Shown here one piece after another: positions 6,726 to 63,879 of a DNA stretch of 64,000 bases. The notes below the pieces were generated by a model. The model had not been told where the DNA came from. It did no database searches and saw only the letters and a list, made by a program, of their open reading frames with translations. This DNA is from Candidatus Gastranaerophilales bacterium (GTDB lineage: Bacteria > Cyanobacteriota > Vampirovibrionia > Gastranaerophilales > Gastranaerophilaceae). The stretch lies in contig CALVEG010000006.1 in NCBI GenBank assembly GCA_944326525.1, positions 34,366 to 98,365 on the forward strand, read 5' to 3'. Numbering within the stretch: the first letter of the stretch is position 1; every line of letters starts with the position of its first letter. The position numbers and the translations under genes are program-made.

Positions 6726-6763
6726 AAGACACAATTAAGAATTAGTGATATAATTGTCTTATG
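6726..6763 (+). promoter_or_regulatory. Promoter predicting a leaderless patatin mRNA
   Basis: AAGACA (6726-6731), 17-base spacer, TATAAT (6749-6754), then exactly six bases, then ATG at 6761. No Shine-Dalgarno sequence can fit. Transcription is expected to begin on or next to the A of the start codon. Confidence 0.65.
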
Positions 6764-7978
6764 GAAAATCAGAAATCACTTGAGTATACATGCTTATTTG
6801 GAGGCGGAGCCATAAGAGGAGCTGCTTATGCAGGGACAGCCAAGGCAATGGAAGAACTTGGTATTAACCCTAAAACTCTTGCAGGATCATCTGTAGGTTC
6901 TGTAATTGCCGGTTTACTTGCTGTTGGATATTCGGCTATTGAAATTGAAGAAATCTTTTTAAAAATAAATTTTGAAGTATTTAGAGATGTTCAGTTATCT
7001 CTTGGAGCTAAATTTGCACTAAGTAAGGGTGAATTGTTTTTAGAATGGATAAGAGATTTAATAGAACAAAAATACTATGGTGCTAAGTATAAAAAAGGTT
7101 CGCATAAGGCTGTTACATTTAAAGATATAGGCAAAAATCTTGTTATTATAACAACCGATTTATCAAGTTTTGAATGCAAAGAATTTTCTCGATGGGAAAC
7201 CCCCGATTTTGAGATAGCAGCAGCAATTAGAATTTCTTGTGGAATGCCTGGGCTTATGAGGCCTGTAGAATATAATAATCGTATATTAGTCGATGGCGAT
7301 CTGCAAAAAAGCTGGCCAATGTGGAAACTGTCCAGACACCTTGAACCTGTTGAATCAAGAATTCTTGAGTTTAGACTTGAAGGTGATTTTGAAGGCAATG
7401 ACAAAAACATGATTGAGTATGTAAATTCTCTTTATGCATTTACAACCTCAATGGCTACAAACTTTATAATCGACATTTACGGTCAAAAAGATATGTTTGA
7501 TTATATTGTTATAAACACAGGTGAAACAAATATTGTTGATTTTAATATGCCTGAGGATAAAAGAAAAGACTTAATGGAAATCGGTTACACAAAAACAATA
7601 GAGTATTTTAATAAATATTTACCAGTTAAAAAAGAAAAGTTGTTAGCTATTTATCAAGATATTCAAGATAAACTTGTTAAAATCCAGAAACACTTGAAAC
7701 GTTTGAATATTCAAAAAGCAAAATCACTAACTGCTGAGCTTTTTATAGATTTATGTGATTATAGGGAGCTAATTGAATCAAAAATATATAAAAACATTTC
7801 AGAATTTCAAAAGTATTTTTATAAAAACATAGATTATCCGGCTTTATTTGGTAAAACAACCTTAAATAAGCCTGAAGAAGTATTAGAAAAATTAGATTTT
7901 ACTATTAAATCCCTATATGCTAAAACATCAGAATTAGCGGATTATTTAGAGAAATATAATAAAACTTGTACATTATAG
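6761..7978 (+). CDS. Patatin-like phospholipase
   Basis: A 405-residue serine lipase-type protein. GGGAIRG (14-20) is the oxyanion-hole motif, GSSVG (42-46) holds the nucleophile Ser44, and VDGD (Asp178) is the second member of the Ser-Asp catalytic dyad, where DGA or DGG is more usual. The patatin domain covers about residues 8-200. The C-terminal 150 residues are Lys-rich helices of no known family. There is no signal peptide, so it acts in the cytosol, on the inner face of the membrane, or after export by a non-Sec system. Likely substrates are acyl chains of phospholipids or related esters. Confidence 0.88.
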   Translation: MENQKSLEYTCLFGGGAIRGAAYAGTAKAMEELGINPKTLAGSSVGSVIAGLLAVGYSAIEIEEIFLKINFEVFRDVQLSLGAKFALSKGELFLEWIRDLIEQKYYGAKYKKGSHKAVTFKDIGKNLVIITTDLSSFECKEFSRWETPDFEIAAAIRISCGMPGLMRPVEYNNRILVDGDLQKSWPMWKLSRHLEPVESRILEFRLEGDFEGNDKNMIEYVNSLYAFTTSMATNFIIDIYGQKDMFDYIVINTGETNIVDFNMPEDKRKDLMEIGYTKTIEYFNKYLPVKKEKLLAIYQDIQDKLVKIQKHLKRLNIQKAKSLTAELFIDLCDYRELIESKIYKNISEFQKYFYKNIDYPALFGKTTLNKPEEVLEKLDFTIKSLYAKTSELADYLEKYNKTCTL

Positions 7979-11685: not shown

Positions 11686-11708
11686 AATCTATCCTTTTTT
11701 TGAAATTT

Positions 11709-11714
11709 ATTATA
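11709..11714 (-). promoter_or_regulatory. Minus-strand -10 box for the eda-kdgK-csaB operon
   Basis: TATAAT on the minus strand at 11709-11714, about 24 bases before the eda ATG, with an aaagga ribosome binding site between. No good -35 is seen; it would fall on the start of the divergent adenylate cyclase gene. Confidence 0.4.
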
Positions 11715-11733
11715 TCATAAAATAAGGAGGGGT

Positions 11734-13695
11734 ATGAAAAACTTAAAGTCTAAACTGTTTTTTATATATTCATTTATTTTTTATGTAGTCTTGTCATTTG
11801 TGCTATTGGTAATTTCATGGCAGATTCTTGAACCGAATGCATACAATTTTATGGTTAAGAATTTTAACGCAGTGCAAAACGCATCTGACAGGATTGTAAT
11901 GGTTGTTATAGATGACAAATCAACTTCAAGATATCGCTGGCCATGGAAACGTGATCTATATGCCAAAATTTTTGAATATTTAAATAACTACTGCGATACT
12001 GAATTAATAGGTTTTGATGCTATTTTTACAAGTTTAGACCAAGAGGCTCCTCAGGCAGACAAAGAGCTTTTTAACACTGTAAAAAAGATTAATAATCTGG
12101 TCGTAGGATTTAGCTTGATAGATGAAAAGCCTGCAAATAAAGAGCAAGCTGAATTATATGAGCAAAAATTTTATGACAAATTTGGCACAAACATAGAAGA
12201 TAAACGAGTTAAATATCGTTTTCCTTCAAAATACGGTAGCTTTTCGAAGTATCCACAGGCATATTTTGATTCAGTAAAATATGCAGGATCCGTAAATTCA
12301 ACACGATTACCTGCCAATGGTTATATGGTTTTCAACGATTTAATCGTATCGCTAAATCAAAAATACTACCCATCATTATCATTGAGAATGTATATGCTTT
12401 TAACGGGTGCTGATAAGGTTAGTATGTATGACGATTATGTTTTAGTTGAGAAAACAGGACTTAAAATTCCTACTACCGTAAGTTATAATGGACTTCATAA
12501 CTATATAAAATTTTATAAGATACAAGACAGAACGTCATATTCATTCAAAAAATACTCAGCAGTGGATCTTATAGATTCTCTTGAAAATCTTAAAAACGGC
12601 AAAACTCCGCTTATCAATCCTTCCGAGTTTAAAGACAAGATAGTTTTTGTCGGAGCCAACGCAAAAGCTTCTGCTATAAAAGTTATCGACGCACAGCCGA
12701 CTCCAATGCTTCATGAACATCCTGGGGTCGATATTCAAGCAATTAACCTTAGTAATTTTATAAACAAAGATATTATGAAGATTAGTTCATTAAAATTTGA
12801 TCTTTGCATAATTCTACTGTTAAGTGTGTTAACATTTATAATAATAAGTCGTTTTACGGTCTTTAAATCCTTGTTATTACTAATTTTAACATCATTTTGT
12901 TATTTAACATTTGCGGTATTTTGTTATAGAAATAATTTTGCTGTAAATGTTGTAACGCCATTAGGAATACAGCTTGTGACAATGATATTCGCCTACTCAT
13001 ATCGTTTTATAGTTGAGGGGAAAAACAAAGAAAAAATAAAGCAAGCAATGGGCAAATATCTTTCGCAAGATATTATGAAAAATGTTGTAAAAAACATTGA
13101 TGATATAAAGCTTGGTGGAAAGAGAGCAAATGTAACTGTACTTTTTGCTGATATAAGAGGATTTACCAGTATGAGCGAAAAGATGACAGCTGAAGAAGTT
13201 TCAAAAATTTTAAATGAATATTTTACTGAAATTGAACCTATAATTACTAAATACAATGGAGTTATCAACAAATTTATTGGAGACGCTGTAATGGCGATAT
13301 TTGGTGAGCCGATACAAGACTTAAATCACCCTGTAAATGCAGTAAAATGTGCTTATGAAATGTTAAAAAAGGTTGATGAACTTCGTGACAAGTGGCTTTT
13401 TGAAGGGAAACCCAAAATAGAAATAGGAGTTGGAATTAATACAGGAGATGCATTTGTCGGAAACATAGGTTCCGAAAAGCGGCTTGAGTATACCGTAATT
13501 GGTGACACAGTAAACCTTGCAAGCAGAATTGAAAGTTATAATAAAGTTTACCGCACAAACTTTTTAATAAGCAGCTCTACTTATTCATACGTAAGCAATA
13601 TTGCAGATGTAATAAAAATAAGCGAAGTTACAATCCGTGGTAAAGCTAAAAAGATGGATATTTACGAAGTTTTACGCATAAGCCAAACTGAATAA
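11734..13695 (+). CDS. CHASE2-domain adenylate cyclase, membrane bound
   Basis: A 653-residue class III nucleotidyl cyclase. An N-terminal membrane helix (about 8-28) is followed by an extracytoplasmic CHASE2 sensor (about 35-345), then three membrane helices (about 350-425), then the cyclase domain. Metal ligands are Asp473 (LFADIRGFTS) and Asp517 (FIGDAVM). Lys513 and Thr592 (GDTVNLASR, Arg598) are the residues that select ATP over GTP, so cAMP is the expected product. CHASE2-cyclases are common in cyanobacteria. The aaggagg site sits only three bases before ATG, unusually close. Eighteen bases separate it from recG. Confidence 0.9.
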   Translation: MKNLKSKLFFIYSFIFYVVLSFVLLVISWQILEPNAYNFMVKNFNAVQNASDRIVMVVIDDKSTSRYRWPWKRDLYAKIFEYLNNYCDTELIGFDAIFTSLDQEAPQADKELFNTVKKINNLVVGFSLIDEKPANKEQAELYEQKFYDKFGTNIEDKRVKYRFPSKYGSFSKYPQAYFDSVKYAGSVNSTRLPANGYMVFNDLIVSLNQKYYPSLSLRMYMLLTGADKVSMYDDYVLVEKTGLKIPTTVSYNGLHNYIKFYKIQDRTSYSFKKYSAVDLIDSLENLKNGKTPLINPSEFKDKIVFVGANAKASAIKVIDAQPTPMLHEHPGVDIQAINLSNFINKDIMKISSLKFDLCIILLLSVLTFIIISRFTVFKSLLLLILTSFCYLTFAVFCYRNNFAVNVVTPLGIQLVTMIFAYSYRFIVEGKNKEKIKQAMGKYLSQDIMKNVVKNIDDIKLGGKRANVTVLFADIRGFTSMSEKMTAEEVSKILNEYFTEIEPIITKYNGVINKFIGDAVMAIFGEPIQDLNHPVNAVKCAYEMLKKVDELRDKWLFEGKPKIEIGVGINTGDAFVGNIGSEKRLEYTVIGDTVNLASRIESYNKVYRTNFLISSSTYSYVSNIADVIKISEVTIRGKAKKMDIYEVLRISQTE

Positions 13696-13699
13696 TATA

Positions 13700-13717
13700 T
13701 GTTACAATTCGGATATG
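13700..13717 (+). promoter_or_regulatory. Extended -10 promoter predicting leaderless recG mRNA
   Basis: TGTTACAAT (13700-13708) is an extended -10 element (TGn plus TACAAT). Six bases later comes the recG ATG at 13715. No Shine-Dalgarno sequence precedes the start. The -35 region is poor, as is usual with extended -10 promoters. It lies just after the cyclase stop codon. Confidence 0.5.
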
Positions 13718-16278: not shown

Positions 16279-17217
16279 ATGGGAGACTACCCAAACGAAA
16301 TACCTGTATATAAACCCTTAAGATACAATACTGGGCAGGTAAGAGCAGGCCTCAATGGCGTAAGAAGACCTCCTTCAAGTATTAATATCTACCATAAAGA
16401 AACTACTGTAAACAATTTTGGTGGTGGATTTGGGTTTGGATATTATAATTATTGCGACTATGGCTTAACAAAAGCTGAGAAATGGGGTTTGGGTATAACC
16501 GGCGTATTAGGAGCCATCGGAGCATTTGCCAGTGCATTTTTAGGCGCAAAGAATGCTGATGGCAAAGGAGATGTAGATAAACCGGAAAACTCAGAAATTC
16601 AAGCACTTAAAAAACAGATTGAAGAGCTAAAAAATGAAAATAAAGAATTAGGTGATACCTTGGAAAAGCTCCAAGAAGATACAAAAGTTGAGGAACCAGT
16701 TAAAACCGAGGAACCAGCAAAAGTAGAAAGTGACAATAAGCATGTTGCCGATGCTGAAGAAGTCAAACAAGAAGCAAAATTTGCAGAATTTAATGTAACG
16801 GCTCAAAAGATAGGTGATAACTTATACAGAGGCTATACAGGCTATAACATAGTTGCAGCAAAATACAAAGCAGAAGACGGAACGCCGCTTACTCACGGAG
16901 AGATAATGGCAATCTGCAATGATATATTCAAAGGTAAAGCATTACCAACAGGAAAGATACAGTTACCTATTGAAGTAGAAGTAAACGGAAAGAAATATAC
17001 CTATGACAAAAAGGTACCTGACTCAGATGTCAAACCGTCAGAATATTCACTTAAGAAACATGATACATACTCAAGCAGTGCAGTAGCCGTTGGCAGCAAA
17101 TTTGCACCTACAGTAGACGGTAAACGAGTTGGCACCGCACTATATGAAACAAAAGAAGAAGCAATAAAAGCAGCAGAAGCAGAAATAGCAGAACTGGAAA
17201 AAGAAGATAAAAAATAA
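16279..17217 (+). CDS. Hypothetical protein with TTVNNFGG motif, membrane segment and coiled coil
   Basis: A 312-residue protein of no family known to me. Residues about 40-60 carry INIYHKETTVNNFGGG followed by a Gly/Phe/Tyr stretch. Next come a hydrophobic, glycine-rich segment (WGLGITGVLGAIGAFASAFLG, about 74-94), a coiled coil (about 112-145) and a Glu/Pro/Lys-rich linker. The last 130 residues form a globular region with Tyr-rich strands. There is no classical signal peptide. A perfect aaaggag site precedes the ATG. The next gene, 23 bases downstream, repeats the motif, membrane segment and coiled-coil plan, so they are divergent tandem paralogues. Confidence 0.65.
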   Translation: MGDYPNEIPVYKPLRYNTGQVRAGLNGVRRPPSSINIYHKETTVNNFGGGFGFGYYNYCDYGLTKAEKWGLGITGVLGAIGAFASAFLGAKNADGKGDVDKPENSEIQALKKQIEELKNENKELGDTLEKLQEDTKVEEPVKTEEPAKVESDNKHVADAEEVKQEAKFAEFNVTAQKIGDNLYRGYTGYNIVAAKYKAEDGTPLTHGEIMAICNDIFKGKALPTGKIQLPIEVEVNGKKYTYDKKVPDSDVKPSEYSLKKHDTYSSSAVAVGSKFAPTVDGKRVGTALYETKEEAIKAAEAEIAELEKEDKK

Positions 17218-17240
17218 CCCACTCAAAGGAGAAGTATAAA

Positions 17241-17912
17241 ATGGCATGGATGATAGGTCGTAACCATTGCACAGTACCAACAGGAAGATTACAATTAGGC
17301 TCAAGAACGAGCATGAATGTACACTACGAAAAAACTACCGTAAATAATTTTGGTGGTTGCGGCGGAATGGGTATGGGCATGATGGGTATGGACATGTATA
17401 ATCCAATGAACATGGGCATAATGGGCATGGGTATGTACAATCCTATGGGTATGGGCATGATGGGCATGGGAGTGTATAATCCTATGGACATGATGGGTAT
17501 GGGAGTATACGGAGATTGCTACGGAGGCGGTGCTGGAACAACCACTACAATAATAGGAGGTATTTTAAATTCGATAGGACAATTGGCAGGAGTAACCGGA
17601 GGCATAATAAATGCTAAAAAATCAGAATCTAAATCTACAGAAGATGATAGTGCTAGCAGTTCTGAAATAAAAGAATTAAAAGAACAAGTTGAATTATTAA
17701 AGCAAGAACAGCAAAAACGTGTAAAAGAAATAGAAGAATGCAAAGAATTGTCAAAATTATACCAAGAAGGTATATCTAAAGATAATGACGGCAAGTATGT
17801 AGTTAAAGTAAAAGATAAAGACGGTAAAACGATTGAACTAAAAGGCGAAACTCCAGAAGAAGTAAGAAAATTAAAAAAAGAACACGAGGCTAAATTAAAA
17901 GCTGAAGAATAA
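17241..17912 (+). CDS. Hypothetical Gly/Met-rich protein with TTVNNFGG motif
   Basis: A 223-residue protein. The N-terminus has SMNVHYEKTTVNNFGG (residues about 27-43), the motif shared with the protein at 16279. A repeat tract of Met-Gly and YNPM units follows (about 43-91), then a Gly/Ile-rich hydrophobic segment (TIIGGILNSIGQLAGVTGG), then a highly charged helical C-terminus. An aaaggag site precedes the ATG. Met/Gly/Tyr tracts of this sort suggest a surface, self-assembling or metal-contacting segment, but no function can be assigned. A strong terminator ends the two-gene unit. Confidence 0.65.
   Translation: MAWMIGRNHCTVPTGRLQLGSRTSMNVHYEKTTVNNFGGCGGMGMGMMGMDMYNPMNMGIMGMGMYNPMGMGMMGMGVYNPMDMMGMGVYGDCYGGGAGTTTTIIGGILNSIGQLAGVTGGIINAKKSESKSTEDDSASSSEIKELKEQVELLKQEQQKRVKEIEECKELSKLYQEGISKDNDGKYVVKVKDKDGKTIELKGETPEEVRKLKKEHEAKLKAEE
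17367..17513 (+). repeat. In-frame Met-Gly/YNPM tandem repeat
   Basis: Within the gene at 17241 the DNA is built from atggg(c/t) units, and three longer units of roughly 13 codons each contain Tyr-Asn-Pro-Met preceded and followed by Met-Gly steps. The DNA copies are near-identical, so the tract is a candidate for length change between strains. Confidence 0.75.
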
Positions 17913-18086: not shown

Positions 18087-18521
18087 ATGGAAGATTTAAA
18101 AGTAGCAATCGGCTCAGATCACGGCGGATTTCAGTATAAAGAAAAGATAATTGACTACCTAAAGGCAAGAAATATTCCTTACGTAGATTTAGGGACTCAC
18201 ACGCCGGAAGCTTGCGATTACCCTGAAATAGCAAGAGCTGTATGCGAAAGAGTTATATCAGGCAAGTCAAATCGTGGTATTTTAATATGCGGAACCGGAA
18301 TCGGAATGTCAATTGCAGCAAACAAGGTAAGAGGAATAAGAGCTGCATTGTGTGGAGATACTTATTCTGCAAGAGTTTCAAGAGCACACAACAATTCTAA
18401 TGTACTTTGTTTAGGGCAGCGAGTAATAGGAGAACATCTTGCGCTTGATATAGTTGACATTTGGCTAAAAACTGGTTTTGAAGGCGGAAGACACAAACGC
18501 CGCGTTGATTTGATAGAGTAA
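18087..18521 (+). CDS. rpiB: Ribose-5-phosphate isomerase B
   Basis: A 144-residue isomerase of the LacAB/RpiB family, interconverting ribose 5-phosphate and ribulose 5-phosphate in the pentose phosphate pathway. SDHGG (10-14) is the phosphate-binding start, and ICGTGIGMSIAANK (67-80) contains the catalytic Cys68. RVIG and the final GGRHKRRVD are family marks. A gaggtg ribosome binding site precedes the ATG. rsfS follows after 12 bases in the same unit. Confidence 0.95.
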   Translation: MEDLKVAIGSDHGGFQYKEKIIDYLKARNIPYVDLGTHTPEACDYPEIARAVCERVISGKSNRGILICGTGIGMSIAANKVRGIRAALCGDTYSARVSRAHNNSNVLCLGQRVIGEHLALDIVDIWLKTGFEGGRHKRRVDLIE

Positions 18522-18973: not shown

Positions 18974-19011
18974 TTTACAAATCTGGACATATAGGTTAAA
19001 ATGAAGACATG
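18974..19011 (+). promoter_or_regulatory. Promoter predicting a leaderless TPR-gene mRNA
   Basis: TTTACA (18974-18979), 17-base spacer, TAAAAT (18997-19002), six bases, ATG at 19009. The start would coincide with the first transcribed base. Confidence 0.6.
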
Positions 19012-20094
19012 GAAAATACAGATAATAAAAAACAGGATTTAAACAAAAAAATAGAAGAAGCCATTTTAGCAATGGCGAAAGACCCGCAAAATATTGCAAA
19101 TTACCATACTTTATCAAAGTTATATCTTGAAATTCAAGATTACGATAAAGTTATGTCAGTTTTGGAAAGTTTGTTAACTATTTCACCAAATGATGTTGAA
19201 GCACTTATTGGAATGGGGACAATGTGGTTTTACGAAAGAGATTTCAGAAAATCCCTTTCATACTACAACAAAGCGTTAGAGATTAACCCTAAAAATTACC
19301 TAATTTACTATAACATTGGTAATGTATTTGCTGAATGGAAAAACTTTTCAAAAGCATTATTTTATTATAACAGAGCAATAGATCTTTGTTCTTCTAATCC
19401 TGAAATTTATAATGCAATTGCGCTTTTATACCAAGATTTTGAAGAGTATGTAGAATCAAGAGCTTATTATGAAAAAGCCCTTTCTTTAGATCCTGAAAAT
19501 ATAACAGCACTTGTTGATATGGGTAATGTTTGTTTCAAACTATTTGATTACCCTAAAGCTTTAGAGTTATACAAAAAGGTTTTTGCTCTTAATCCTGATA
19601 ACAAAATTGTAGCTATTTGTATAGGAAATACTCTTACTTTAATGCGAGAAAGAGAAAAGGCATACAATTACTTTGAAAAAGCACTTCAAATGGAAGGCGA
19701 TAATTACAAAGCTTATATTTGTTATTCAATAGCGCTTTCAGAGTTTAGAGAATATGATATTGCAATAGAAATGTATAAACGGGCAATTGCACTAGAACCC
19801 AAAACAGAAAATGCATATTTACTATTAGCAAATCTTTATACAAACCTTAACAGATTAGATGAAGCAATGGCTTTATACAAAGATGTTTTAAAATTTTCAC
19901 CAAACAGTGCACAGGCGTACATGTTTATGGGTACCTGTCATTATCTTAAAGGTGAGATTGAAAAAGCAATTGCAGCATATAGAGCAGCTATTAAGGTTGA
20001 ACCTGATAACGATGAGCACAAACTTGTTTATATCCAAGTGTTGGATGAATATATTGATAAAAAACGTAATGGTGAAATTGAAGAAAGTGCATAA
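19009..20094 (+). CDS. Tetratricopeptide repeat protein
   Basis: A 361-residue protein made almost wholly of about nine TPR units of 34 residues, for example ALEINPKNYLIYYNIGNVFAEW and the repeated A-x-x-LDPEN steps. It has no signal peptide or membrane helix, so it is a cytosolic scaffold. The first 30 residues are charged. Two bases separate its stop from the ATG of the Tic20-like gene, so the two are probably co-translated. The binding partner is unknown. Confidence 0.85.
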   Translation: MENTDNKKQDLNKKIEEAILAMAKDPQNIANYHTLSKLYLEIQDYDKVMSVLESLLTISPNDVEALIGMGTMWFYERDFRKSLSYYNKALEINPKNYLIYYNIGNVFAEWKNFSKALFYYNRAIDLCSSNPEIYNAIALLYQDFEEYVESRAYYEKALSLDPENITALVDMGNVCFKLFDYPKALELYKKVFALNPDNKIVAICIGNTLTLMREREKAYNYFEKALQMEGDNYKAYICYSIALSEFREYDIAIEMYKRAIALEPKTENAYLLLANLYTNLNRLDEAMALYKDVLKFSPNSAQAYMFMGTCHYLKGEIEKAIAAYRAAIKVEPDNDEHKLVYIQVLDEYIDKKRNGEIEESA

Positions 20095-27222: not shown

Positions 27223-28215
27223 CTATAAATTTTTAATAATTTCCTCTGCAAATTCTTTAGTTCCGAGATTTCCGCCTAAATCAACAGTTGTCTTGCCGCT
27301 CTGAAGTGTTTTAAACAAAGCTTTTTCAATTTTTTCTGCATAACCAAACTCATTAATATATTTAAGCATTTCAATAGCAGATAATAGAAGAGCAGTTGGG
27401 TTTGCTTTATTTTGTCCCTTAATATCCGGCGCAGACCCATGAACAGGCTCAAATACTGCACAATCAAGTCCTATATTTGCACCTTGAGCAACTCCAAGCC
27501 CTCCGATTAATCCTGCACAAAGATCTGAAACAATATCTCCGTATAAATTCGGCAAGACCAAAACATCAAACTGCTCAGGCTTTTGAACGAGCTGCATGCA
27601 AAGATTGTCAACAAGAATTTCTCGCTGTTTAATCTGAGGGTAATCTTTTGCAACTTCACGATAAGTATTCAAAAACAATCCGTCAGAAAGCTTCATAATA
27701 TTGGCTTTGGTAACAACGCAAACCTCTTTTCTGCCATTTTTTAAGGCATAATCGAAAGCAAATTTACAAATTCTTTCTGTAGCTTTTTTAGTTATAATTT
27801 TTATGCTTTCCGCAGTATTTTCGTTAACTTGACGCTCGATTCCTGCATATAAATCCTCTGTGTTTTCTCTTACTACTACAATATCAACATTATCAAAGCG
27901 TGTTTTTACATTTGGTAAATTCTTACAAGGTCGAAGATTTGCATATAAATCAAGGTCCTTTCTTAATTGGACATTAACTGATCTGAATCCTTTACCAATA
28001 GGTGTCGTAACAGGTGCCTTCAGGGCAATTTTGTTTTTACGGATTGAATTTAAAACACGCTCAGGCAGCGGAACACCCTCTTTTTCGATAACATCTTCTC
28101 CAGCAGTTTGCAAATCCCAGTTTATTTTTAGTCCTGAAGCTTCTATAATTTTCACTACTGCATCAGATATTTCTGGTCCTATTCCATCACCATTAATTAA
28201 TGTAATATTATGCAT
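27223..28215 (-). CDS. NAD-type isocitrate dehydrogenase
   Basis: A 330-residue beta-decarboxylating dehydrogenase, converting isocitrate to 2-oxoglutarate and CO2. LINGDGIGPEI is the N-terminal mark; SVNVQLRKDLDLYANLRP carries the substrate Ser, Asn and Arg residues in the isocitrate pattern rather than the isopropylmalate one; VVRENTEDLYAGIE and NLYGDIVSDLCAGL hold the metal-binding Asp residues. EPVHGSAPDI is the cofactor loop. The short length fits the NAD-dependent, IDH3-like subgroup. It follows a small Cys protein whose stop lies directly before this ATG. Confidence 0.88.
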   Translation of the reverse strand: MHNITLINGDGIGPEISDAVVKIIEASGLKINWDLQTAGEDVIEKEGVPLPERVLNSIRKNKIALKAPVTTPIGKGFRSVNVQLRKDLDLYANLRPCKNLPNVKTRFDNVDIVVVRENTEDLYAGIERQVNENTAESIKIITKKATERICKFAFDYALKNGRKEVCVVTKANIMKLSDGLFLNTYREVAKDYPQIKQREILVDNLCMQLVQKPEQFDVLVLPNLYGDIVSDLCAGLIGGLGVAQGANIGLDCAVFEPVHGSAPDIKGQNKANPTALLLSAIEMLKYINEFGYAEKIEKALFKTLQSGKTTVDLGGNLGTKEFAEEIIKNL

Positions 28216-28419
28216 TTATTCATCATCCTTTACTATACGCAAATTTCTTTTAAACTCTTTGTAAAAGCCACAATTAGTAACTTGCAGCGAATTTTCAATA
28301 TACACATCTCCAAGCGCAAGAGCTGCCAATAAAGGGCAATCCATCTCTTTTAGATAATTCTCACAAGTTATACACAAATCATCGTCTTCTATAAAAACTT
28401 TTGAATTTTGGCTATACAT
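28216..28419 (-). CDS. Small cysteine-containing protein, unknown
   Basis: A 67-residue acidic protein with CITC near residue 17, another Cys in EMDCPLL and one in TNCGFYKEF, a spacing that could bind a metal. No family recognised. The stop codon abuts the ATG of isocitrate dehydrogenase, so it is the first gene of that unit. Its ATG at 28419 has no Shine-Dalgarno and lies six bases after a perfect TATAAT, so its mRNA is predicted to be leaderless. Confidence 0.6.
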   Translation of the reverse strand: MYSQNSKVFIEDDDLCITCENYLKEMDCPLLAALALGDVYIENSLQVTNCGFYKEFKRNLRIVKDDE

Positions 28420-28454
28420 AGGCCAATTATACAGCGTATTACAGTCTTTGTAAA
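28417..28454 (-). promoter_or_regulatory. Promoter predicting a leaderless small-Cys-protein/IDH mRNA
   Basis: Minus strand: TTTACA (28454-28449), 17-base spacer, TATAAT (28431-28426), six bases, ATG (28419-28417). The cleanest leaderless arrangement in the window. Confidence 0.7.
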
Positions 28455-28498
28455 GGAAAGATTCATTGTAACAATTCGTTACAAATATTAAATTAAAC

Positions 28499-52943: not shown

Positions 52944-52980
52944 TTGATAAATTTTTAGTTTATCGTATAATGAAGCTATG
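52944..52980 (+). promoter_or_regulatory. Promoter predicting a leaderless TPR-gene mRNA
   Basis: TTGATA (52944-52949), 16-base spacer, TATAAT (52966-52971), six bases, ATG at 52978. No ribosome binding site. Confidence 0.65.
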
Positions 52981-53556
52981 AGAAAAATTTTACTATTTTT
53001 TATATTAGGGATAATCCTAACATCCCCGGTATTAGCTGAAGAAAACACAATAAGCGAGCAGGCAAAACTTTTATATGCTGACAACAATATAGAAGGAAGT
53101 TTCAATACACTTTTATCAATCCCTGAAGAAGAAAGAACAGCAGAGAACTGGCTTCTTTTGGGAAATCTCTTACAGGATAAAGGGAAAAATGATGAAGCTG
53201 TATTTATGTATACTAGAGCGATTTTAAAAGACGAAAAATTTTATAAAGCACATTACAATCTTGCAAACTGTTATCTGAATGATGACAAGCCGAATATGGC
53301 GATAGAAGAGTACAAAAAAGTTTTGAAACTTCGCCCTGAATACGCATATGCACACTACAATTTAGGATGTGCATACCTTAAGCTTGGACAATACAGAAAA
53401 GCTAAAAATGCATTTTTAGATGCAGCATACTTTAAGAATACGGAGCCAGATTTCTATTATAATTTAGCATACGCCTACAAAAAGCTTAATAAACCAAAAG
53501 ACGCAGAAGCTTATCTTAAGATATACAACAAACTTATGGAAAACAGTATAGAGTAG
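52978..53556 (+). CDS. Exported TPR protein
   Basis: A 192-residue protein with a signal peptide (MRKILLFFILGIILTSPVLA) and about four TPR units in the mature part (for example NWLLLGNLLQDKGKNDEAV and AYAHYNLGCAYLKLGQYRKA). It would act outside the cytoplasm as a scaffold. The ATG follows a TATAAT by six bases with no ribosome binding site. The HAD and exonuclease genes follow at 6-base gaps in the same direction. Confidence 0.82.
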   Translation: MRKILLFFILGIILTSPVLAEENTISEQAKLLYADNNIEGSFNTLLSIPEEERTAENWLLLGNLLQDKGKNDEAVFMYTRAILKDEKFYKAHYNLANCYLNDDKPNMAIEEYKKVLKLRPEYAYAHYNLGCAYLKLGQYRKAKNAFLDAAYFKNTEPDFYYNLAYAYKKLNKPKDAEAYLKIYNKLMENSIE

Positions 53557-55629: not shown

Positions 55630-58600
55630 ATGTCGGAATACAGTGTACAACAGCAAAAAATAATAAGCCAATACAGGCAAACAAACAATCTTGGCTACGT
55701 CATATCAGATGACGAAGTTGTATCTATTATGCAAAAGGAAATGCAGCAAACAGGGAAAGTATACCCTGGTTTCGAGCATTTAGCAAGCACATCTGCATCA
55801 TCAAAAGCAGAAACCAATCAAAGCAATCCACCATCTCCGATGGCACCAGCGGATAATGTTTTTGGCACTGGCTTTTATCAGGGGGATAATAAAGGAATAA
55901 CAATAGAACGGACAAATAAGAACTACGTAACAGTTCAGCCGACACTGATTCAATTATTTGCTATGAATTTTCTTAAAAACATAATGCTTGAAGGCAATGC
56001 AATTGTATCAGAGAGAGATAAAGAAGCTGGGGTAATGTCTAGATTTGTAAACCTTTGGCAAGAGAACTTTAATGAAGAATATTCACAATCACATGTAAAA
56101 AAATCACTTTCTAAAACGCAACATGATCTGCAAGTTATGGGAAAAGCCGCAAAGGGCGAGCCAATTGGGTATAATTTTTTAGGAGTGCCGATATATCAAA
56201 CATTTGAAGAAGCATTTAAAAGCAAACGCGGGGTAGAATTCAATCCCGAAAACATAGCGGACTGCGCAGAGAAATCACAGACATACGCCAAAGTAAAAAC
56301 CACTGTAGAAATGGTAAACAAAACTAAAGCAATTCTTGCAACAACGACAAAAGGTGATGTAAAAAGCCAGATGAGCCCAGAAGAATCCTCAAAAGCGATT
56401 ATACAGGCATTCAAACTGGCTGGTGTAACTTCAACAAAAGAAATAAACAAAACCTTAGCAGATATAAACGAAAAATATAAAGACCATCAAGATGTATTGA
56501 AGTACGGAGGCAATTTCAGAATAAATAAAAACAAGCAAGGCGAATATGTAATCTACAGAACCGACAAAAACGGCTATCCTGCAGAAGCAACAAACGAAGA
56601 ATTAAGACTTATTGCAAATGAAATGAGCCAAAGATTAGACAGGACATTAGCTGATGCAATAGGAGTAGAATATTCAAATAGCGCAACACCTGAAGAAGTC
56701 GTTTCTTTAACAGAAAAGAAGTTAAAAGAATATCAGGATATCTATGAAAAAAGTTTTAAAAAAGCATATGGTTCAAAAGATTTAAAAATATTATCTGAAG
56801 AATATGTAGCAAAACAGCAGCAAGGTGTAGCAAACATCGAAGTTGGAATAAACATTTTATCAACAGCATTGATGATACTTCCGCCTGCTGCGGTAGCAGC
56901 AAGAGGAACCGCACTCGGTGCAAAACTAGGGCTTGCAAGCAAGGCAAGTATCGGCGGAAAAATAGTACAAGGACTGGAGACTGCACAAAAAGTAAGTACG
57001 CCGCTCGTTATGGCAGCAATGACACTAAGACCAACGGAATTGCTAGAACAGATATTATCCCAAAACGGTATGAGTGCAGAAGAATGGAAAGCATGGGGAA
57101 TAGGAGTTCTACAAAATTCAGCATATATGGCAACAGGTATGAAAGTAAGCCAACTTGCCGAACAGGGTGCTGCGATTTATAAAACAAAGGCTTTAGTAAA
57201 TACACTCAAAAAAGCCGGAAAAAGCACTGATGAGATCATCGCAATGGTAAAAGCAAATCCCGTAAAATTTCCGGATGATATCGTAAAAAGTTTCAAAAGT
57301 ATCGACAAATTAGCAAAGGCATTGCAAGTTACAAGTGAAGTAGCATTAGACATATCAAGCACGTATTTCTTGAATATGGCAATGAGCAATGGCGATATAC
57401 AGATGCAGGATTGGATAAGTTCAATAGCTTTTGCAATTTCAGGCGGAGTATTGCAAAAACAATTTGCACATTTAACAACAGAAGCAAAAGTACAATATCT
57501 TTGCGATGCATTTAAGGATTACGGAGTAACCGCCAAAGATGCAAAGAATATTCTGCAAACAATGGATGACATATCCGAAGGCAAAATTAAATCCCCATCC
57601 CAAAGTCAAAAAACAAATTCAGTAGAAGATTCATCAGCTACAACAACTCAAGAAACAAATGCAACCACTACAACTCAAGCAGATTCTAAAAATTCCGCAA
57701 CACCAGATGATGTTGTAATTACAGATTCAAGACCTTCGACACCAGCCCAAGACGCAGAAACATCAATAAATAAAAGATTAGAAAGTGCAAATTCAAGAGA
57801 AGAATTTGCATCCCTTCGAGATGAAATCAAAAATATGCCGGAAGGAGAAGATAAAAAAGCACTTCAAGAGGAATATCTAAAAAAATATAATGAGTGGTCA
57901 CAAAATCCACAAAGACCAGATATTAAAATGGAATATATACCGGAGAAGAACAACACCGAAACATCTCAAACTACAAACAGTCAAAGACAAAAAGCAGAAC
58001 CTTCATCAACAAAAGCACAAAATGAAGCATCAAATACAAGAGCAAATGCAGAAGAAGCTAAACCTTCAGAAAACATTCCTGCCAAAGAAGCACAAACAGA
58101 AGAATGCATTAGTGATTTTGATGCAGTTATGAAATTCCTTGATTTTTCAAATGAAATTGACAAAGACTATGAAATAGAAGGTATAATAAATGCCTGCACA
58201 CTTGCCCCTGACAAAGTAAGTACAAGACTAATTGATGAAGCCATAAGACTTGTAAAATCAAGCAATAAAGATTTTAATGAAATAGCTGGAATAATCTCAA
58301 ACTTCAAAAACAAAAACAAAGAGATTGATACAGCTAAAATAGAAAAATTTCACGAATTAGTAAATAATGGTCAAACACCAAATGATGCTATTTCTGTAAT
58401 TATAAAAAGCGAAGACAAAAAAGGAAATTATAGAGAAGATTACAACAAAAAGTTATTAACCCTAAAAAAACAGGACAATTATTCAGGAACTCTTTTAAAA
58501 ACCTGCGAAATTAACGGCACCATAAGTAATGAAGTTTGGGAAAAAGTACTGGATTTAGATGCCTTAGGCTATGACAACAGAACTAAAAGTAAAATTATAG

Positions 58601-61600
58601 AAACCTGCTTAAATAAAGAAACCATAGATGCGAACGGATTTACAAAAACAACTGGTTTTAATAATGAAATTTTCTCAAAAATAAAAGAATTAATTACAAA
58701 AGAAAAAATTAGCGCGAATAATGCTGTCGAAATCATGGACGCGTGCAAAAAAGGTAACGAAATTTCAGCAGAATACTACGCTCGCGCATTATACTTAAAA
58801 GACAAGATTAATGAAAATGCAATAAAGGATTTTGTGACCTATGATGATAAAGCTACAAGCTTTATGCTTGAAATTAAGGACAAATATAAAATAGAAGAAC
58901 ACGATCTCAAATACATTATAAAGAGCTGTCACGAAACCACAGACGGCAAAAACATTTTTTCAGACACACTATCATCAAAAGTTGAAGAACTGCTTACAAA
59001 ACATAAAATACCAGCAAGTGAAATAAGCACTATATTAGACAGCTCCAAGGTTGATGGCAAAGCTGATGAAAAACTATACACCGAAATATTAAAGATGCAC
59101 GAAGCAGGTATATACGACATAAAAGCTATAGTAACCGCAAGCAAAATAAAAGACACAGCAAAAAATAAAACAGAAATTAATTACGACTTTATTGATAAAG
59201 CAATAGAGTGGACACAACACGGGATCAGCGAAAATTGGATACAAAATTATATTTATGCAATCAGAGATAAAGAGATAGACATAACAAAAGAAGATTATGT
59301 CCTAGACTTATCAAAAGCTGGATTTCCGTCAAAATCAATTGACGTTATACTATCTGCGAATTTAAAAAAAGACACAGATTTTCAAACATTTACAGACAAA
59401 ATTATAGAAATGAATGAGCTAGGTATAGAAAAAAACGCAATAATAAAAATTATAGAGTCCTTACAAGGCAACATAGCAAACAAAGAAAATTCATATTTAA
59501 GTACAGAAAATCTTGAAATTGCAATAGAAATGTATAAATCAGGAATAAAACATCCTGAAAATATCATTCTAAAAACATACAACAACAAAACAGCAAAAGA
59601 ATCTGCACTACAAGATGCTTACCAAAAAATACAAGAAGGCATATCAGAAGACAGAGTAGAAATACTTCAGAATACAATAAACTATCATCAAAAGAATGAA
59701 AAAATAGAGAAGCTGTCAGCAGAAGTAGCAAAAGCATTACCCGCAGAAAGCAAAGCCCTAAATACAATCATAGACAAAATGTATGAACACGAAAAATTAG
59801 CACCCCAAATAGCTGAAGCGATAAAAGCCGGTGCTGACGAAAATCATGTAATTGCGGTTATAGATATGTTTCAATCCACTCCGCAAAATATAGAGATACA
59901 ATATGCAATAAGCACAATGCAAAGCAAATGTCTAAAAGCAATGCAAGAAAAACCAGAAAAAGCAGAAGCTTTTACAAACATATTAAGATATATTGAACCG
60001 GTCATCGGAATAAGAGTACAAATTCTAGATACATGTTTAGCACATCCGGATAATTGGATGGAAATCGCAGATGCAACAAAAGTTTTAATAAGCAAAAATA
60101 AAGAACTTTATACAGATTCATCAAAAGCCTGCAACTTAATATCAGAATTTACAAAAGCGGAAATACCTCTTGAAGATAATTTAAGAATGGTAAATTTAAT
60201 CTGTGAAGCATCACAAAACCCAAATACAATCTACCCACCTGAATTTACACAAAAAATAATTGATTTGTATAACTCAAGCAAAATTGATGATGCAACACTT
60301 AATTTAATAAATCACTTACCGAAAACAAACGCAAAAGGAGTAGAAATTCTAGACACAATCGTGAAACTTAAAGAGCAAAAACATTTAACAGATGATAATC
60401 TAAATGATCAAACCCTTTCAAAAATTATATATAATGAAAAAACAAATGAATACTATGATAATTATGCAGAAATTCTAGATTTTTACGTTGAAAATAGCGA
60501 AATCATAAATAAACAAAATACAGATTCTAAAGGGACCAAAACGCTTTATAATTTAATTGAAAACTATAGCAGCCAAATAGAAGGTAATTCGCTTGATTTA
60601 CAAGGATTAAAAGCAATAACCAAACTAGCGAAAGAAACTTCGATAAATTTAAACATTATAGATGGCGTAATAGCTAACGGATACGCAGGTAAACTTGCAG
60701 AATTTTTAGACAAGTTTGATTTAAAAACCTATAAAACAGAAGTATTACAAATTTTAAAACTTTTAGAAAATCCTTTTACTCATAAATACAATTCAGACAT
60801 TTTAAGCCCGCAATTAACAAAAGAAAAATTAAATTTCATTCTTGATTTACAAAAACAGTTAAATGAGAAAGACATAAAAGACAAACTAATATTAAATAAT
60901 AATTTTGTAAAAGAAGTTATAAACGAAGGTAAAGATGTACCAGAAGAAGCTTTTAACAAGCTTAGATTTTACATAGAAGCAGAATTATCCACCATTGAAA
61001 AGGGAGAATATTTAAATCCAGGAGCATACTTACATATATTTGAAACATACAAAAAGTCACCGGATCAAATAGATAAAATTGAATCAATAATCTTTGACCA
61101 TGAATGGCATGATTGGATTTCACCAATAGAAATCATGAAAAAATTTTCAACTGACAAAGAAATTTTGCCAAAACAACTTGAACTTATGAACAAGCTTTTT
61201 GAAATATCAGGCAACAGCAAAGATTTATCAATCCAAAACTTAATAATTTCAACTTTAAAACCTGAATCTCCAGAAAATATAGATGCAAAATTAACATTTA
61301 TCGCTCAAAATGAATCAAAAATGAAAATTTCAAATTTTCAAAAAATATTTAATGAAGACAAAACAGATTATAAAATATTACAACTATTATCAATAATTAG
61401 AAACGTCCGCAAAGATAACATAGATATAGCTAATACCTTCATAAATAAAACATTAACTAATAAAAAATTTAACGGAATATTATTAGAATATATAAATGAC
61501 AATAACAAAAAATTTATAAATAAGATATTAGAAGAGAATAAAATAGAAAACTCTGTAACCCTAAGCTCACTAGCACAATCGACAGGAGCCTCAAAGGAAA

Positions 61601-63879
61601 TATGTGAATTTATGGAGAAGAATATTGACATATTTCCCAAGGACATATTAGGTATAATTTCAGAAAATTTAAATGAATATAACAAAGAATTTGCAATAGA
61701 ATTGTTTACTAAAGAATATGCAAACATATCAGAAGCGGAAAAAGTCAATATTTTAAGATTAACAAACAATAAAAATTTGAATTTAATAACCCAACTATGC
61801 GATGATAAAGATACAATATATAAAGGTGAACAAATACAAAAAGTGGCATATCTGACAACATCTTATCCAGAAACATATAAATTAGCAGAAGCATTATACA
61901 CGGACAAAAGTGCAAAATGTCCCCCAGAACAAATTGGGGATATAATAGAAGCTGCAAAACTATTAAATAATGATATTAAAACAATACATTTAAGCAAAAA
62001 AATTAAAATATTTGAAACACTAAACAGCACTCCCAAAACAGTACTTGAATTATGTAAAAAAGTTAGCGGCATCGATTTAGAAAACAAACTAATCCAACTT
62101 ACAACAATCTTGGGCAAAAAGAAAGATACTGTTAAAATTTCAAAAGAACAGCAAAAACAATTTGTCACAAATATTCTGACAAACAATAATCCAATAAGTG
62201 AAAACGTATTAAGAAATTATGATTTCAAACAATACGGAAAAGAGGGATTACCGCTAAAATACACAAGAGCAGAATTTACAAAAAATATAGAAACAATAAT
62301 AAAAAATCTTTCCGAAAAAGAGCAATCAATAATACTGGAACATTTTGGTCTAGAAAGAGGCATTGCAGGATTTGACGGATTACCGAATAACAAACCTTTT
62401 GAAATGCAAGGAGCAAGTGAAGAATTAATAAATACAGCAGCAAAAGTTCAAAGTGAAATTGAAAACTTTACAACAAAAAATTCAATAAACACAGGAGATC
62501 CAGAAGTCGACACAATTCTAAACGGCTTAATATCAGGGCTTCCTGAATTCACCTCTATTGTAGGCAAGGAACAGCACGGAACACACGCCTATAGCGTAGA
62601 CATACACACGCTAAAAGTGCTTCAAAGTGCAATGAATAATCCACTATATGAAAAACTTAGCGATAAAGACAAAACCATATTAAAATTTGCAGCACTTTGT
62701 CATGACTTAGGCAAAAAAGGTGGCACAGTAGACAAAGGTCATGCAAGCGCTAGTGCAGAATACGTAATAGGTATACTGGATAAATTTAACTTTCCTCGCT
62801 CAATTTCAGATAGAATAATAGACATTGTTGACAACCATCACTGGTTTGAAGCATACAACACAGGAACAGCAAGCGCAGAAGATGTAGCCGTAAGATGTCG
62901 CAGACCGGAAGACTTCCTGATATATGAAATTTTAGCAAAAGCAGATTTTGAAAACGTAAATGATAATTTTCATCTTTTACATTCACAAGGAGTAGAAACC
63001 CAAAAAGAATTTGATGATTACATGGCACAAAAAATGGAAGCTATAGGCTTAGTTTTGGATAATATATATTCAAAAGCAAATTTAGTATTTGATACCAAAT
63101 TTATGCACAACGGCGCAAAATTTCCAACAGAATCCGCAAAAATTGGAAAAGAAACAGTAAATTTAAAAGTCCTAGACCTTAATAAGTTAAAAGACAATGC
63201 AAGTTTAGAAGAATACGGATTTGCAAAAGGCACTACCAAAAAGAATGCGCGCTTCCTAATCCATATGACAGCACCCGAAAATAGTTTTATGGAATCGGTA
63301 TACATTTTAACATCTAATTCCTTAAATCAAAGTGCTTGGTCAACATCCTTAATAAAAGCAGACAACAACAAAACGTACGGAGATAGAAAATTTGGCTTTA
63401 TATTTGATATAGACCTTGCAAACATTTCAGAAGCACATTATCTAAACACCAGTTCCGGCGGAAACAAAGATATTAATGTATTTAAAGACATCTTAATTAC
63501 AAAAGATAACGATGTCAGAACATATGTTAAAGATAATTTAATAAAAGATCTTTCATCAAAAGGGATTAAATTAAATGACAAAGAATACGCAATTTTAGCA
63601 AAATATTTAATGTCAAAAAAATATACAACCCAGATTACAAAGGATGTAAAAATAGGCGATAAAGTAATCAATGCAAAAGATTTAGTCGAATGTTTAGAAA
63701 AATCTCGAGACAAATTGTTTAAAGGTTTTGAACACAGCGAAATAGTACCAATAAATCCAAGAATACAAGGTTTAATAGCAAAAGTAAACAGCATTGAAGA
63801 ATGCCCTGAAGAATTTTTACGATTTGCAAAAGAACATAATTTACCAATAGTGTTAATGAAGGCAGCACAAAAAGAGTAG
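55630..63879 (+). CDS. Giant (2749-residue) protein with helical repeats and an HD phosphohydrolase domain
   Basis: One uninterrupted frame of 8250 bases. Residues 1-110 are polar. About 110-620 is a helical region with a hydrophobic Ala/Gly stretch (about 410-440). A Ser/Thr/Gln linker follows (about 660-820). About 830-2280 is a long solenoid of 35-45-residue helical units such as ELxxxGIxxxxIxxII. An HD domain follows, with His2319, His2358-Asp2359, Lys2362, His2371 and His2403-His2404, a full metal-binding set of the HD phosphohydrolase superfamily. The last 330 residues are an unassigned alpha/beta domain with RFLIHMT near its start. No signal peptide and no clear ribosome binding site. 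Probably an exported or cytosolic effector-like enzyme; substrate unknown. Confidence 0.75.
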   Translation: MSEYSVQQQKIISQYRQTNNLGYVISDDEVVSIMQKEMQQTGKVYPGFEHLASTSASSKAETNQSNPPSPMAPADNVFGTGFYQGDNKGITIERTNKNYVTVQPTLIQLFAMNFLKNIMLEGNAIVSERDKEAGVMSRFVNLWQENFNEEYSQSHVKKSLSKTQHDLQVMGKAAKGEPIGYNFLGVPIYQTFEEAFKSKRGVEFNPENIADCAEKSQTYAKVKTTVEMVNKTKAILATTTKGDVKSQMSPEESSKAIIQAFKLAGVTSTKEINKTLADINEKYKDHQDVLKYGGNFRINKNKQGEYVIYRTDKNGYPAEATNEELRLIANEMSQRLDRTLADAIGVEYSNSATPEEVVSLTEKKLKEYQDIYEKSFKKAYGSKDLKILSEEYVAKQQQGVANIEVGINILSTALMILPPAAVAARGTALGAKLGLASKASIGGKIVQGLETAQKVSTPLVMAAMTLRPTELLEQILSQNGMSAEEWKAWGIGVLQNSAYMATGMKVSQLAEQGAAIYKTKALVNTLKKAGKSTDEIIAMVKANPVKFPDDIVKSFKSIDKLAKALQVTSEVALDISSTYFLNMAMSNGDIQMQDWISSIAFAISGGVLQKQFAHLTTEAKVQYLCDAFKDYGVTAKDAKNILQTMDDISEGKIKSPSQSQKTNSVEDSSATTTQETNATTTTQADSKNSATPDDVVITDSRPSTPAQDAETSINKRLESANSREEFASLRDEIKNMPEGEDKKALQEEYLKKYNEWSQNPQRPDIKMEYIPEKNNTETSQTTNSQRQKAEPSSTKAQNEASNTRANAEEAKPSENIPAKEAQTEECISDFDAVMKFLDFSNEIDKDYEIEGIINACTLAPDKVSTRLIDEAIRLVKSSNKDFNEIAGIISNFKNKNKEIDTAKIEKFHELVNNGQTPNDAISVIIKSEDKKGNYREDYNKKLLTLKKQDNYSGTLLKTCEINGTISNEVWEKVLDLDALGYDNRTKSKIIETCLNKETIDANGFTKTTGFNNEIFSKIKELITKEKISANNAVEIMDACKKGNEISAEYYARALYLKDKINENAIKDFVTYDDKATSFMLEIKDKYKIEEHDLKYIIKSCHETTDGKNIFSDTLSSKVEELLTKHKIPASEISTILDSSKVDGKADEKLYTEILKMHEAGIYDIKAIVTASKIKDTAKNKTEINYDFIDKAIEWTQHGISENWIQNYIYAIRDKEIDITKEDYVLDLSKAGFPSKSIDVILSANLKKDTDFQTFTDKIIEMNELGIEKNAIIKIIESLQGNIANKENSYLSTENLEIAIEMYKSGIKHPENIILKTYNNKTAKESALQDAYQKIQEGISEDRVEILQNTINYHQKNEKIEKLSAEVAKALPAESKALNTIIDKMYEHEKLAPQIAEAIKAGADENHVIAVIDMFQSTPQNIEIQYAISTMQSKCLKAMQEKPEKAEAFTNILRYIEPVIGIRVQILDTCLAHPDNWMEIADATKVLISKNKELYTDSSKACNLISEFTKAEIPLEDNLRMVNLICEASQNPNTIYPPEFTQKIIDLYNSSKIDDATLNLINHLPKTNAKGVEILDTIVKLKEQKHLTDDNLNDQTLSKIIYNEKTNEYYDNYAEILDFYVENSEIINKQNTDSKGTKTLYNLIENYSSQIEGNSLDLQGLKAITKLAKETSINLNIIDGVIANGYAGKLAEFLDKFDLKTYKTEVLQILKLLENPFTHKYNSDILSPQLTKEKLNFILDLQKQLNEKDIKDKLILNNNFVKEVINEGKDVPEEAFNKLRFYIEAELSTIEKGEYLNPGAYLHIFETYKKSPDQIDKIESIIFDHEWHDWISPIEIMKKFSTDKEILPKQLELMNKLFEISGNSKDLSIQNLIISTLKPESPENIDAKLTFIAQNESKMKISNFQKIFNEDKTDYKILQLLSIIRNVRKDNIDIANTFINKTLTNKKFNGILLEYINDNNKKFINKILEENKIENSVTLSSLAQSTGASKEICEFMEKNIDIFPKDILGIISENLNEYNKEFAIELFTKEYANISEAEKVNILRLTNNKNLNLITQLCDDKDTIYKGEQIQKVAYLTTSYPETYKLAEALYTDKSAKCPPEQIGDIIEAAKLLNNDIKTIHLSKKIKIFETLNSTPKTVLELCKKVSGIDLENKLIQLTTILGKKKDTVKISKEQQKQFVTNILTNNNPISENVLRNYDFKQYGKEGLPLKYTRAEFTKNIETIIKNLSEKEQSIILEHFGLERGIAGFDGLPNNKPFEMQGASEELINTAAKVQSEIENFTTKNSINTGDPEVDTILNGLISGLPEFTSIVGKEQHGTHAYSVDIHTLKVLQSAMNNPLYEKLSDKDKTILKFAALCHDLGKKGGTVDKGHASASAEYVIGILDKFNFPRSISDRIIDIVDNHHWFEAYNTGTASAEDVAVRCRRPEDFLIYEILAKADFENVNDNFHLLHSQGVETQKEFDDYMAQKMEAIGLVLDNIYSKANLVFDTKFMHNGAKFPTESAKIGKETVNLKVLDLNKLKDNASLEEYGFAKGTTKKNARFLIHMTAPENSFMESVYILTSNSLNQSAWSTSLIKADNNKTYGDRKFGFIFDIDLANISEAHYLNTSSGGNKDINVFKDILITKDNDVRTYVKDNLIKDLSSKGIKLNDKEYAILAKYLMSKKYTTQITKDVKIGDKVINAKDLVECLEKSRDKLFKGFEHSEIVPINPRIQGLIAKVNSIEECPEEFLRFAKEHNLPIVLMKAAQKE

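Follow-up and report, generated by a model that had tools for sequence, protein, structure and literature searches.

TATAAT boxes exactly six bases before ATG form a genome-wide class of predicted leaderless promoters in a Gastranaerophilales bacterium

Published leaderless systems and the five sites in the window

Leaderless genes preceded by a TA-like signal were recognized in 207 of 953 bacterial genomes in the cited part of the survey by Zheng 2011 (PMC3160421), and a figure of 21.6% of bacterial species as predicted leaderless users is given in the cited passage of StartLink (PMC9581028). The class described here resembles that of Zheng 2011, as presented in the sections cited, in having a Pribnow-type box ~10 bp upstream of the start in a minority of genes, and its motif resembles that of the low-GC genomes in the survey, where the box reads TAtAAT and is in some cases preceded by a TG peak; a change of mode between orthologues was also already reported there. 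Another close likeness is found in Deinococcus-Thermus, in which a -10 hexamer lies ~6 to 7 bp before the open reading frame, such genes coexist with genes that carry a Shine-Dalgarno (SD) sequence, and reporters and transcriptome support the -10 motif as the promoter of leaderless genes (PMC12340547, in the text cited; other phyla are surveyed in its figure S7). However, the motif in that group is TANNNT and serves ~30% of ORFs, whereas the one described here is TATAAT with an extended TGn and serves ~5 to 10% of genes.

The literature on leaderless genes in cyanobacteria is divided. One of the organisms concerned, Synechococcus elongatus UTEX 2973, belongs to the same GTDB phylum as the genome studied here. 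In the cited part of the relevant study, 19 transcription start sites of leaderless genes were mapped in that strain (PMC6091082), and a passage of Nakagawa 2017 (PMC5397173) places Cyanobacteria among the phyla for which many leaderless mRNAs have been reported. StartLink, in the passage cited, illustrates a weak signal of unknown kind with the Cyanobacteria (PMC9581028), and Zheng 2011, in the part cited, finds neither SD nor leaderless genes in many cyanobacterial genomes (PMC3160421). The group list with leaderless genes in that part of the survey is without Cyanobacteria, whereas the class described here occurs in non-photosynthetic members of the phylum. The preliminary description of this DNA knew of no account for the lineage, and the word "leaderless" was indeed not found in the literature searched together with Melainabacteria, Gastranaerophilales or Vampirovibrionia. 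Leaderless transcription itself is known; its place in Gastranaerophilales is likely new, as far as the literature was searched.

The starting point was five genes in the window, i.e., the whole stretch of 64,000 nucleotides that was analysed, at which a TATAAT-like hexamer had been described as ending exactly six bases before ATG. All five hexamers and six-base spacers are present in the sequence just as they had been given, as are the -35 spacings at four sites (17, 17, 17, and 16) and the extended TGT that takes the place of a -35 box at 13715. The RecG domains and TPR repeats found with Pfam agree with the names given to three of the genes, and the "lipase" at 6761 is corrected to a patatin-like phospholipase. 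For this phospholipase gene, the -10 box at spacing 6 was also present in one of three best-hit pairs from the family sample. Among 46 orthologue loci of the TPR gene at 19009, judged by eye, the spacing was 6 in 11, 7 in 13, and neither in 22. Elsewhere in the window, an ORF of 2,749 amino acids (55630-63879) had no Pfam match at 1e-5.

Positions of the five sites and their genes in the window
Feature	Position	Strand	Basis or remark
-10 TATAAT, site of ATG at 28419	28426..28431	-	ends six bases before ATG; read directly
-35-like TTTACA, site of ATG at 28419	28449..28454	-	17 bases upstream of -10
67-aa Cys-containing protein gene, predicted leaderless, predicted operon leader	28216..28419	-	ORF
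Isocitrate/isopropylmalate dehydrogenase-family gene	27223..28215	-	Pfam PF00180, 6e-108; ORF positions
-10 TATAAT with TGA before it, ATG at 6761	6749..6754	+	leave-one-out score 11.9
-35-like AAGACA of 6761 site	6726-6731	+	
Patatin-like phospholipase gene, predicted leaderless	6761..7978	+	PF01734
-10 TACAAT, extended form (TGT 13700-13702), ATG at 13715	13703..13708	+	read in sequence
recG, predicted leaderless in this genome	13715..16102	+	RecG domains
-10 TAAAAT, ATG at 19009	18997..19002	+	leave-one-out score 3.2, lowest of the four scan-scored sites
-35-like TTTACA of 19009 site	18974-18979	+	
TPR protein gene, predicted leaderless or nearly so	19009..20094	+	TPR repeats
-10 TATAAT, ATG at 52978	52966..52971	+	leave-one-out score 7.4
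-35-like TTGATA of 52978 site	52944-52949	+	
TPR protein gene, hydrophobic N-terminus, predicted leaderless	52978..53556	+	TPR repeats

A one-base-wide spacing peak and its motif make-up

The genome from which the window derives (1.945 Mb in 27 contigs, ~34% GC, the window covering 34366-98365 of contig C6) was sampled with 40 further stretches, which together with the window comprised 858 kb, or 44% of the genome. Genes and their starts were called from coding potential (codon usage) only, and upstream motifs played no part in the choice of start. An exact TATAAT was found at spacing 6 upstream of 21 of the 720 ATG genes, compared to a mean of 2.23 and a maximum of 7 at spacings 14 to 53 (Poisson P = 4.6e-14). 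The peak was one base wide, with counts of 0, 21, and 2 at spacings 5, 6, and 7. When one mismatch was allowed, there were 51 boxes at spacing 6 against a background of 18.6 (next highest spacing, 28). Dinucleotide shuffling of the upstream regions (200 shuffles) gave 1.02 exact matches (maximum, 4) and 14.4 matches with one mismatch (maximum, 25), and with the window left out an exact box at spacing 6 was still present in 19 of 676 genes versus 2.05. Chance in an AT-rich genome was rejected as an explanation on the basis of the other spacings of the same upstream regions, the dinucleotide shuffles, and the window-free sample. Thus, the sharp peak at 6 foreseen in the preliminary description for a scan of -10-to-ATG distances was present across this 44% of the genome, and the proposed excess over shuffled upstream regions held.

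An expectation-maximization (EM) fit in which motif and spacing were both free yielded, for this genome, an SD class with the motif AGGAGA, mostly at spacings 4 to 8, and a TATAAT class for which spacing 6 carried 63% of the weight. Five controls with rotated upstream regions gave T-rich motifs with spread spacing and no such peak. The fit placed ~9% of the genes at spacing 6; a stricter leave-one-out count found 39 of 720 genes with a score of ≥7 versus 2.96 expected, or ~5% of genes. Small genes are under-counted in these figures because the gene caller missed the 67-codon gene at 28419. The five sites in the window therefore belong to a genome-wide class that comprises ~1 in 20 of the sampled genes.

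The make-up of the class was evaluated with the 51 genes of this genome that have TATAAT with at most one mismatch at spacing 6. A TGn preceded the box in 21 of these 51 genes versus 79 of 693 controls (P = 3e-7), and a -35 element within two mismatches of TTGACA was likewise present in 21 of the 51 versus 72 of 343 (P = 0.003). The base at -1 was T in 43 of the 51 class genes compared to 291 of 669 other genes (P = 1.5e-8). Bacterial RNA polymerase usually prefers to initiate at an A that is preceded by a T, and the enrichment therefore fits a transcription start on the A of ATG. The pooled sample of this genome, other members of the family, and f6, a family of another order in the same taxonomic class, had the box at 103 of 1,446 ATG starts versus 2 of 109 other starts (P = 0.03), but in this genome alone the preference for ATG was not significant (51 of 720 versus 1 of 35; P = 0.50). 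Nor was there a clear excess of promoter-proximal positions by the gap rule (39 of 51 class genes versus 456 of 669 other genes; P = 0.27).

It had also been claimed that none of the five genes has an SD sequence while most other genes in the window do. SD sequences were indeed absent from all 51 class genes, but this is largely forced: the hexamer, at -12 to -7, itself fills the SD position, and where the box lay at spacings 7 to 8 an SD sequence was found in 1 of 23 genes. The absence is therefore not independent evidence. With regard to the other genes, "most" agrees with the EM fit (~70%) but not with the core match, which was found in only 322 of 669 non-class ATG genes. No match to an anti-SD sequence was found in the assembly, from which the 16S rRNA is perhaps missing.

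Conservation and turnover of the class

The site at 28419 was compared across the order in the best 30 loci (this genome included) of the 48 genomes with a match. Exact TATAAT was present in 29 of these best 30, at spacing 6 in 24 (23 with ATG and one, L247, with GTG), at 7 in 4, and at 9 in 1; an exact TTTACA with a spacer of 16 to 18 bases was present in 26. The locus L256, which belongs to a different family of the order, lacked a box and instead had an SD-like GAGGAA and a TTG start. When 14 of these upstream regions were aligned, the -10 was invariant compared to a mean column identity of 52%. In a separate count of differences per site, the -10 at 28419 had 0.24 versus 0.52 to 0.57 in the flanks. 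In seven loci of the genus, which were not selected, substitutions in codons 2 to 12 fell on codon positions 1, 2, and 3 in 38, 17, and 84 cases. Because this codon-phase pattern begins directly 3' of the ATG, translation appears to run from this ATG.

The 67-amino-acid protein had no Pfam hit. A dehydrogenase-family gene begins directly 3' of its stop codon, and a GDGI motif lay within 12 codons past the stop of the small gene in 28 of the best 30 of 48 loci. With the dehydrogenase gene so close, a leaderless first gene would head a tightly packed operon. Just upstream of the -35 lies a perfect inverted repeat (TTGTAAC-GAATT-GTTACAA; window positions 28466-28484), which also occurs in L233, with related TTGTTA repeats at that place in other relatives; it could be a regulator site.

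The recG gene provides a natural experiment, in which a single gene in mostly one neighbourhood has switched its start mode many times. The RecG protein encoded in the window shares 95% identity with that of a Candidatus Gastranaerophilales MAG, and of the 80 named RecG hits, 50 are labelled Gastranaerophilales or Melainabacteria and the rest mostly "uncultured bacterium" (counted by eye). In 27 of the 80 named loci recG had a box at spacing 6, with ATG in all, TGn in 21, and T at -1 in 24. In 47 loci the gene was coupled, starting within 12 nt of the end of the upstream gene; these starts were ATG in 24, GTG in 14, and TTG in 9, and an SD core was present in 30. The remaining 6 were neither boxed at spacing 6 nor coupled. 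On a quick RecG tree of 81 rows (the 80 loci and the window), in which 21 of 78 inner branches were left open, the fewest changes of arrangement were 9 when the leaderless type was compared to the coupled type only and 11 when it was compared to all others, the latter figure including rows that are borderline (L125 and L129, whose box is at spacing 7, and L127, whose box has two mismatches). Thus, the leaderless-type arrangement of recG appears to be an alternative to the operon-coupled start that has been gained and lost in evolution.

The start codon of recG was ATG in all 28 leaderless-type rows versus 24 of 47 coupled ones, but the classifier accepted only ATG or GTG as leaderless type, excluding TTG, and preferred such a start if one lay within eight codons. 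Among nine independent pairs on the tree, the start codon differed in three to five, without exception in one direction (sign test, median P = 0.125), so that the link of the leaderless type to ATG at recG is suggestive. For recG, in 12 rows selected because they have the box, substitutions in codons 2 to 12 numbered 96, 56, and 281 at codon positions 1, 2, and 3, which again points to translation from the ATG behind the box.

Two genes at 16279-17912 without a Pfam match were found in only 13 and 11 of the 80 recG loci (tblastn, E 1e-15), with identities of 33 to 77% and 30 to 75%, whereas the neighbouring rpiB-like gene at 18087 was at least 93% identical in loci of the genus; the pair appears from these identities to be fast-evolving. 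The stretch TATATACTTTATATATATAAG upstream of 16279 is well kept. The element TTATTATATCATAA (11707-11720), upstream of a CHASE2/adenylate-cyclase gene (11734-13695), is present, as judged by eye, in most of 58 relatives.

The spacing-6 class extended beyond this genome. Boxes at spacing 6 were found in 14 of 327 genes of other genera of the family versus 1.65, although the EM fit to this smaller sample was less clean, with 26 to 35% of the TATAAT class at spacing 6. When genes from the order's other families were pooled and scored with a model trained on this genome only, the count was 7 of 230 versus 0.63 (P = 4.5e-6). In f6 (stretches L182-L186, L190-L191, and L212-L231), the counts at spacings 6, 7, 8, and 9 were 13, 5, 7, and 3 versus 0.6; the EM fit assigned ~31% of the genes to the TATAAT class and roughly a quarter to spacings 6 to 9, but TGn, -35, and T at -1 were not enriched. 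Families f2, f3, f4, and f8 of the same taxonomic class gave 1 of 157 versus 0.19, which was not significant.

Membership in the class was conserved within the family. Among 132 pairs of genes, in which some genes of this genome were counted more than once, 8 had the box in both members, 8 in the member from this genome only, 5 in the other member only, and 111 in neither (P = 7e-6), and 6 of 10 distinct class genes had at least one class orthologue. Membership was not conserved between f1 and f6 (2 in both, then 6, 9, and 58; P = 0.33). The class thus persists while its member genes turn over.

Whole-genome counts of TATAATN6ATG relative to TATAATN7ATG, with the reversed patterns as the control, can serve as a rough guide only because the coding frame changes the background. 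In eight genomes of the genus the N6/N7 ratio was 1.34 (control, 0.69), and in the family outside the genus (11 of 49 genomes summed) it was 1.49 versus 0.63. The order outside the family was mixed (22 genomes; 0.75 versus 0.60): the ratio of the two ratios was 1.98 in family f15, with no excess by these counts in f10 (0.78) and f12 (0.98). Of 38 further genomes of the phylum, 20 were classed as photosynthetic by their photosystem reaction-centre genes and had no excess (485/668 = 0.73 versus 0.69), compared to 0.91 versus 0.61 in the 18 genomes without these genes (Photo_RC). In 100 kb of one photosynthetic genome, with only 68 ATG genes, 3 boxes with up to one mismatch lay at spacing 6 versus 1.45. 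For S. elongatus UTEX 2973, the cited part of the study indicates few leaderless transcripts (PMC6091082). The non-photosynthetic family f18 of the phylum had N6 and N7 counts of 213 and 203, and 73 kb of it gave just 23 ATG genes. A single genome of family f22, G140, which belongs to the same phylum and has no Photo_RC genes, had counts of 24 for TATAATN6ATG, 8 for N7, and 2 for the reversed control, which makes it a candidate carrier of such genes beyond the taxonomic class of the window.

These distributions allow a broader proposal, which we put forward tentatively and with somewhat less than even confidence. Leaderless expression may be an old, standing mode of the Vampirovibrionia, with a strict six-base rule for ~5 to 10% of genes in Gastranaerophilales and a relaxed rule of 6 to 9 bases, for perhaps a quarter of genes, in the second order. 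Individual genes would have switched many times from an operon-coupled SD start to a leaderless one and back, through gain of an extended -10, and the photosynthetic cyanobacteria, which use SD sequences little, would have lost the leaderless mode or never had it.

The leaderless reading, its alternatives, and its meaning

Bacterial RNA polymerase starts transcription approximately seven bases past the -10 hexamer, and a spacing of 6 would therefore put +1 on the A of ATG. The boxes at spacing 6 are likely sigma-70-type promoters; the A of the start codon would then be the first transcribed base, and translation would proceed on mRNAs that lack a leader. Beyond the spacing peak, the motif make-up, and the conservation and turnover of the class, which were observed, we infer that the 5' end of the mRNA is exactly at AUG and that ribosomes would start on this 5'-terminal AUG without SD pairing. 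Genes served in this way would coexist with SD-carrying genes, which make up approximately half of the others by SD core and ~70% by the EM fit.

A neighbouring possibility is that the transcripts are nearly leaderless, starting 1 to 3 nt upstream of the ATG or at mixed positions, or that a second, distal promoter adds leadered transcripts. Spacings of 7 to 9 do occur in orthologues (5 of the best 30 of 48 loci for the site at 28419, and spacing 7 in about 13 of 46 for the TPR gene) and f6 has many of them (5 at spacing 7, 7 at 8, and 3 at 9). Because the f6 spacings spread over 6 to 9 without enrichment of TGn, -35, or T at -1, some f6 members may have leaders of 1 to 3 nt instead. In addition, recG and other genes are often just downstream of a co-directional gene, from which read-through could occur. 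Within this genome, however, the one-base-wide peak and the enrichment of T at -1, as for a start at A, make such an account unlikely for the class.

It seems far less probable still that the start codons are wrong and that the ORFs begin elsewhere, the box being a normal promoter that lies within or before a leader. In favour of this, a 93-amino-acid predicted protein, P0001, which is identical to the small protein at 28419 over its 67 amino acids, starts 26 codons farther upstream, so that the -10 is read as coding (TATAAT = Tyr-Asn), and an in-frame upstream ATG, GTG, or TTG is present in 19 of the best 30 of 48 loci. In the same best 30, however, a stop codon ends the upstream frame within 8 codons in 13, the GTG or TTG at codon -5 in 15 is made by the extended -10 itself, and all 30 align from residue 1; the codon-phase substitutions, too, begin directly after the ATG. 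The P0001 start is likely a mis-call. Nor is the hexamer likely to be an AT-rich enhancer of translation, for instance an S1 site, in place of a promoter. Although the cited part of Nakagawa 2017 (PMC5397173) discusses U-rich sites bound by S1 in genes that lack SD sequences, the signal here is a specific TATAAT at a fixed spacing, together with an extended TGn and with a -35 spaced as in a promoter, none of which an enhancer would need, and we regard this as the least probable of the readings. Of the readings considered, leaderless promoters explain the observations best.

The functions of the class genes were assigned with NCBIfam cut-offs for 36 of 39 class genes, the other 3 crossing stretch borders. 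Ten of the 36 (prfA, smpB, lepA, mnmA, mnmE, tsaD, rsmH, rsmI, rlmD, and rimI) encode translation factors or functions in rRNA, tRNA, or ribosome modification, whereas among 40 promoter-proximal genes drawn at random there was 1 (one-sided P = 0.0019, for a category chosen post hoc, after the gene list had been seen). Class genes more often belonged to any known family (28 of 36 versus 20 of 40 controls), and among known-family genes the bias was 10 of 28 versus 1 of 20 (P = 0.013). It was not evident in 23 class genes of other genera, for which first residues only were used, and it runs opposite to the cited part of Zheng 2011 (PMC3160421), in which several information-processing categories were more often leaderless but translation (category J) less often. 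A bias toward translation and RNA-modification genes is therefore not claimed.

On the leaderless interpretation, a group of core genes of this uncultured lineage of the gut, a neighbour of the photosynthetic cyanobacteria, would initiate translation by a second route that does not depend on an SD sequence. A gene-calling model aware of leaderless starts would mend wrong start-codon calls in such genomes, probably including that of P0001, which reads through the promoter.
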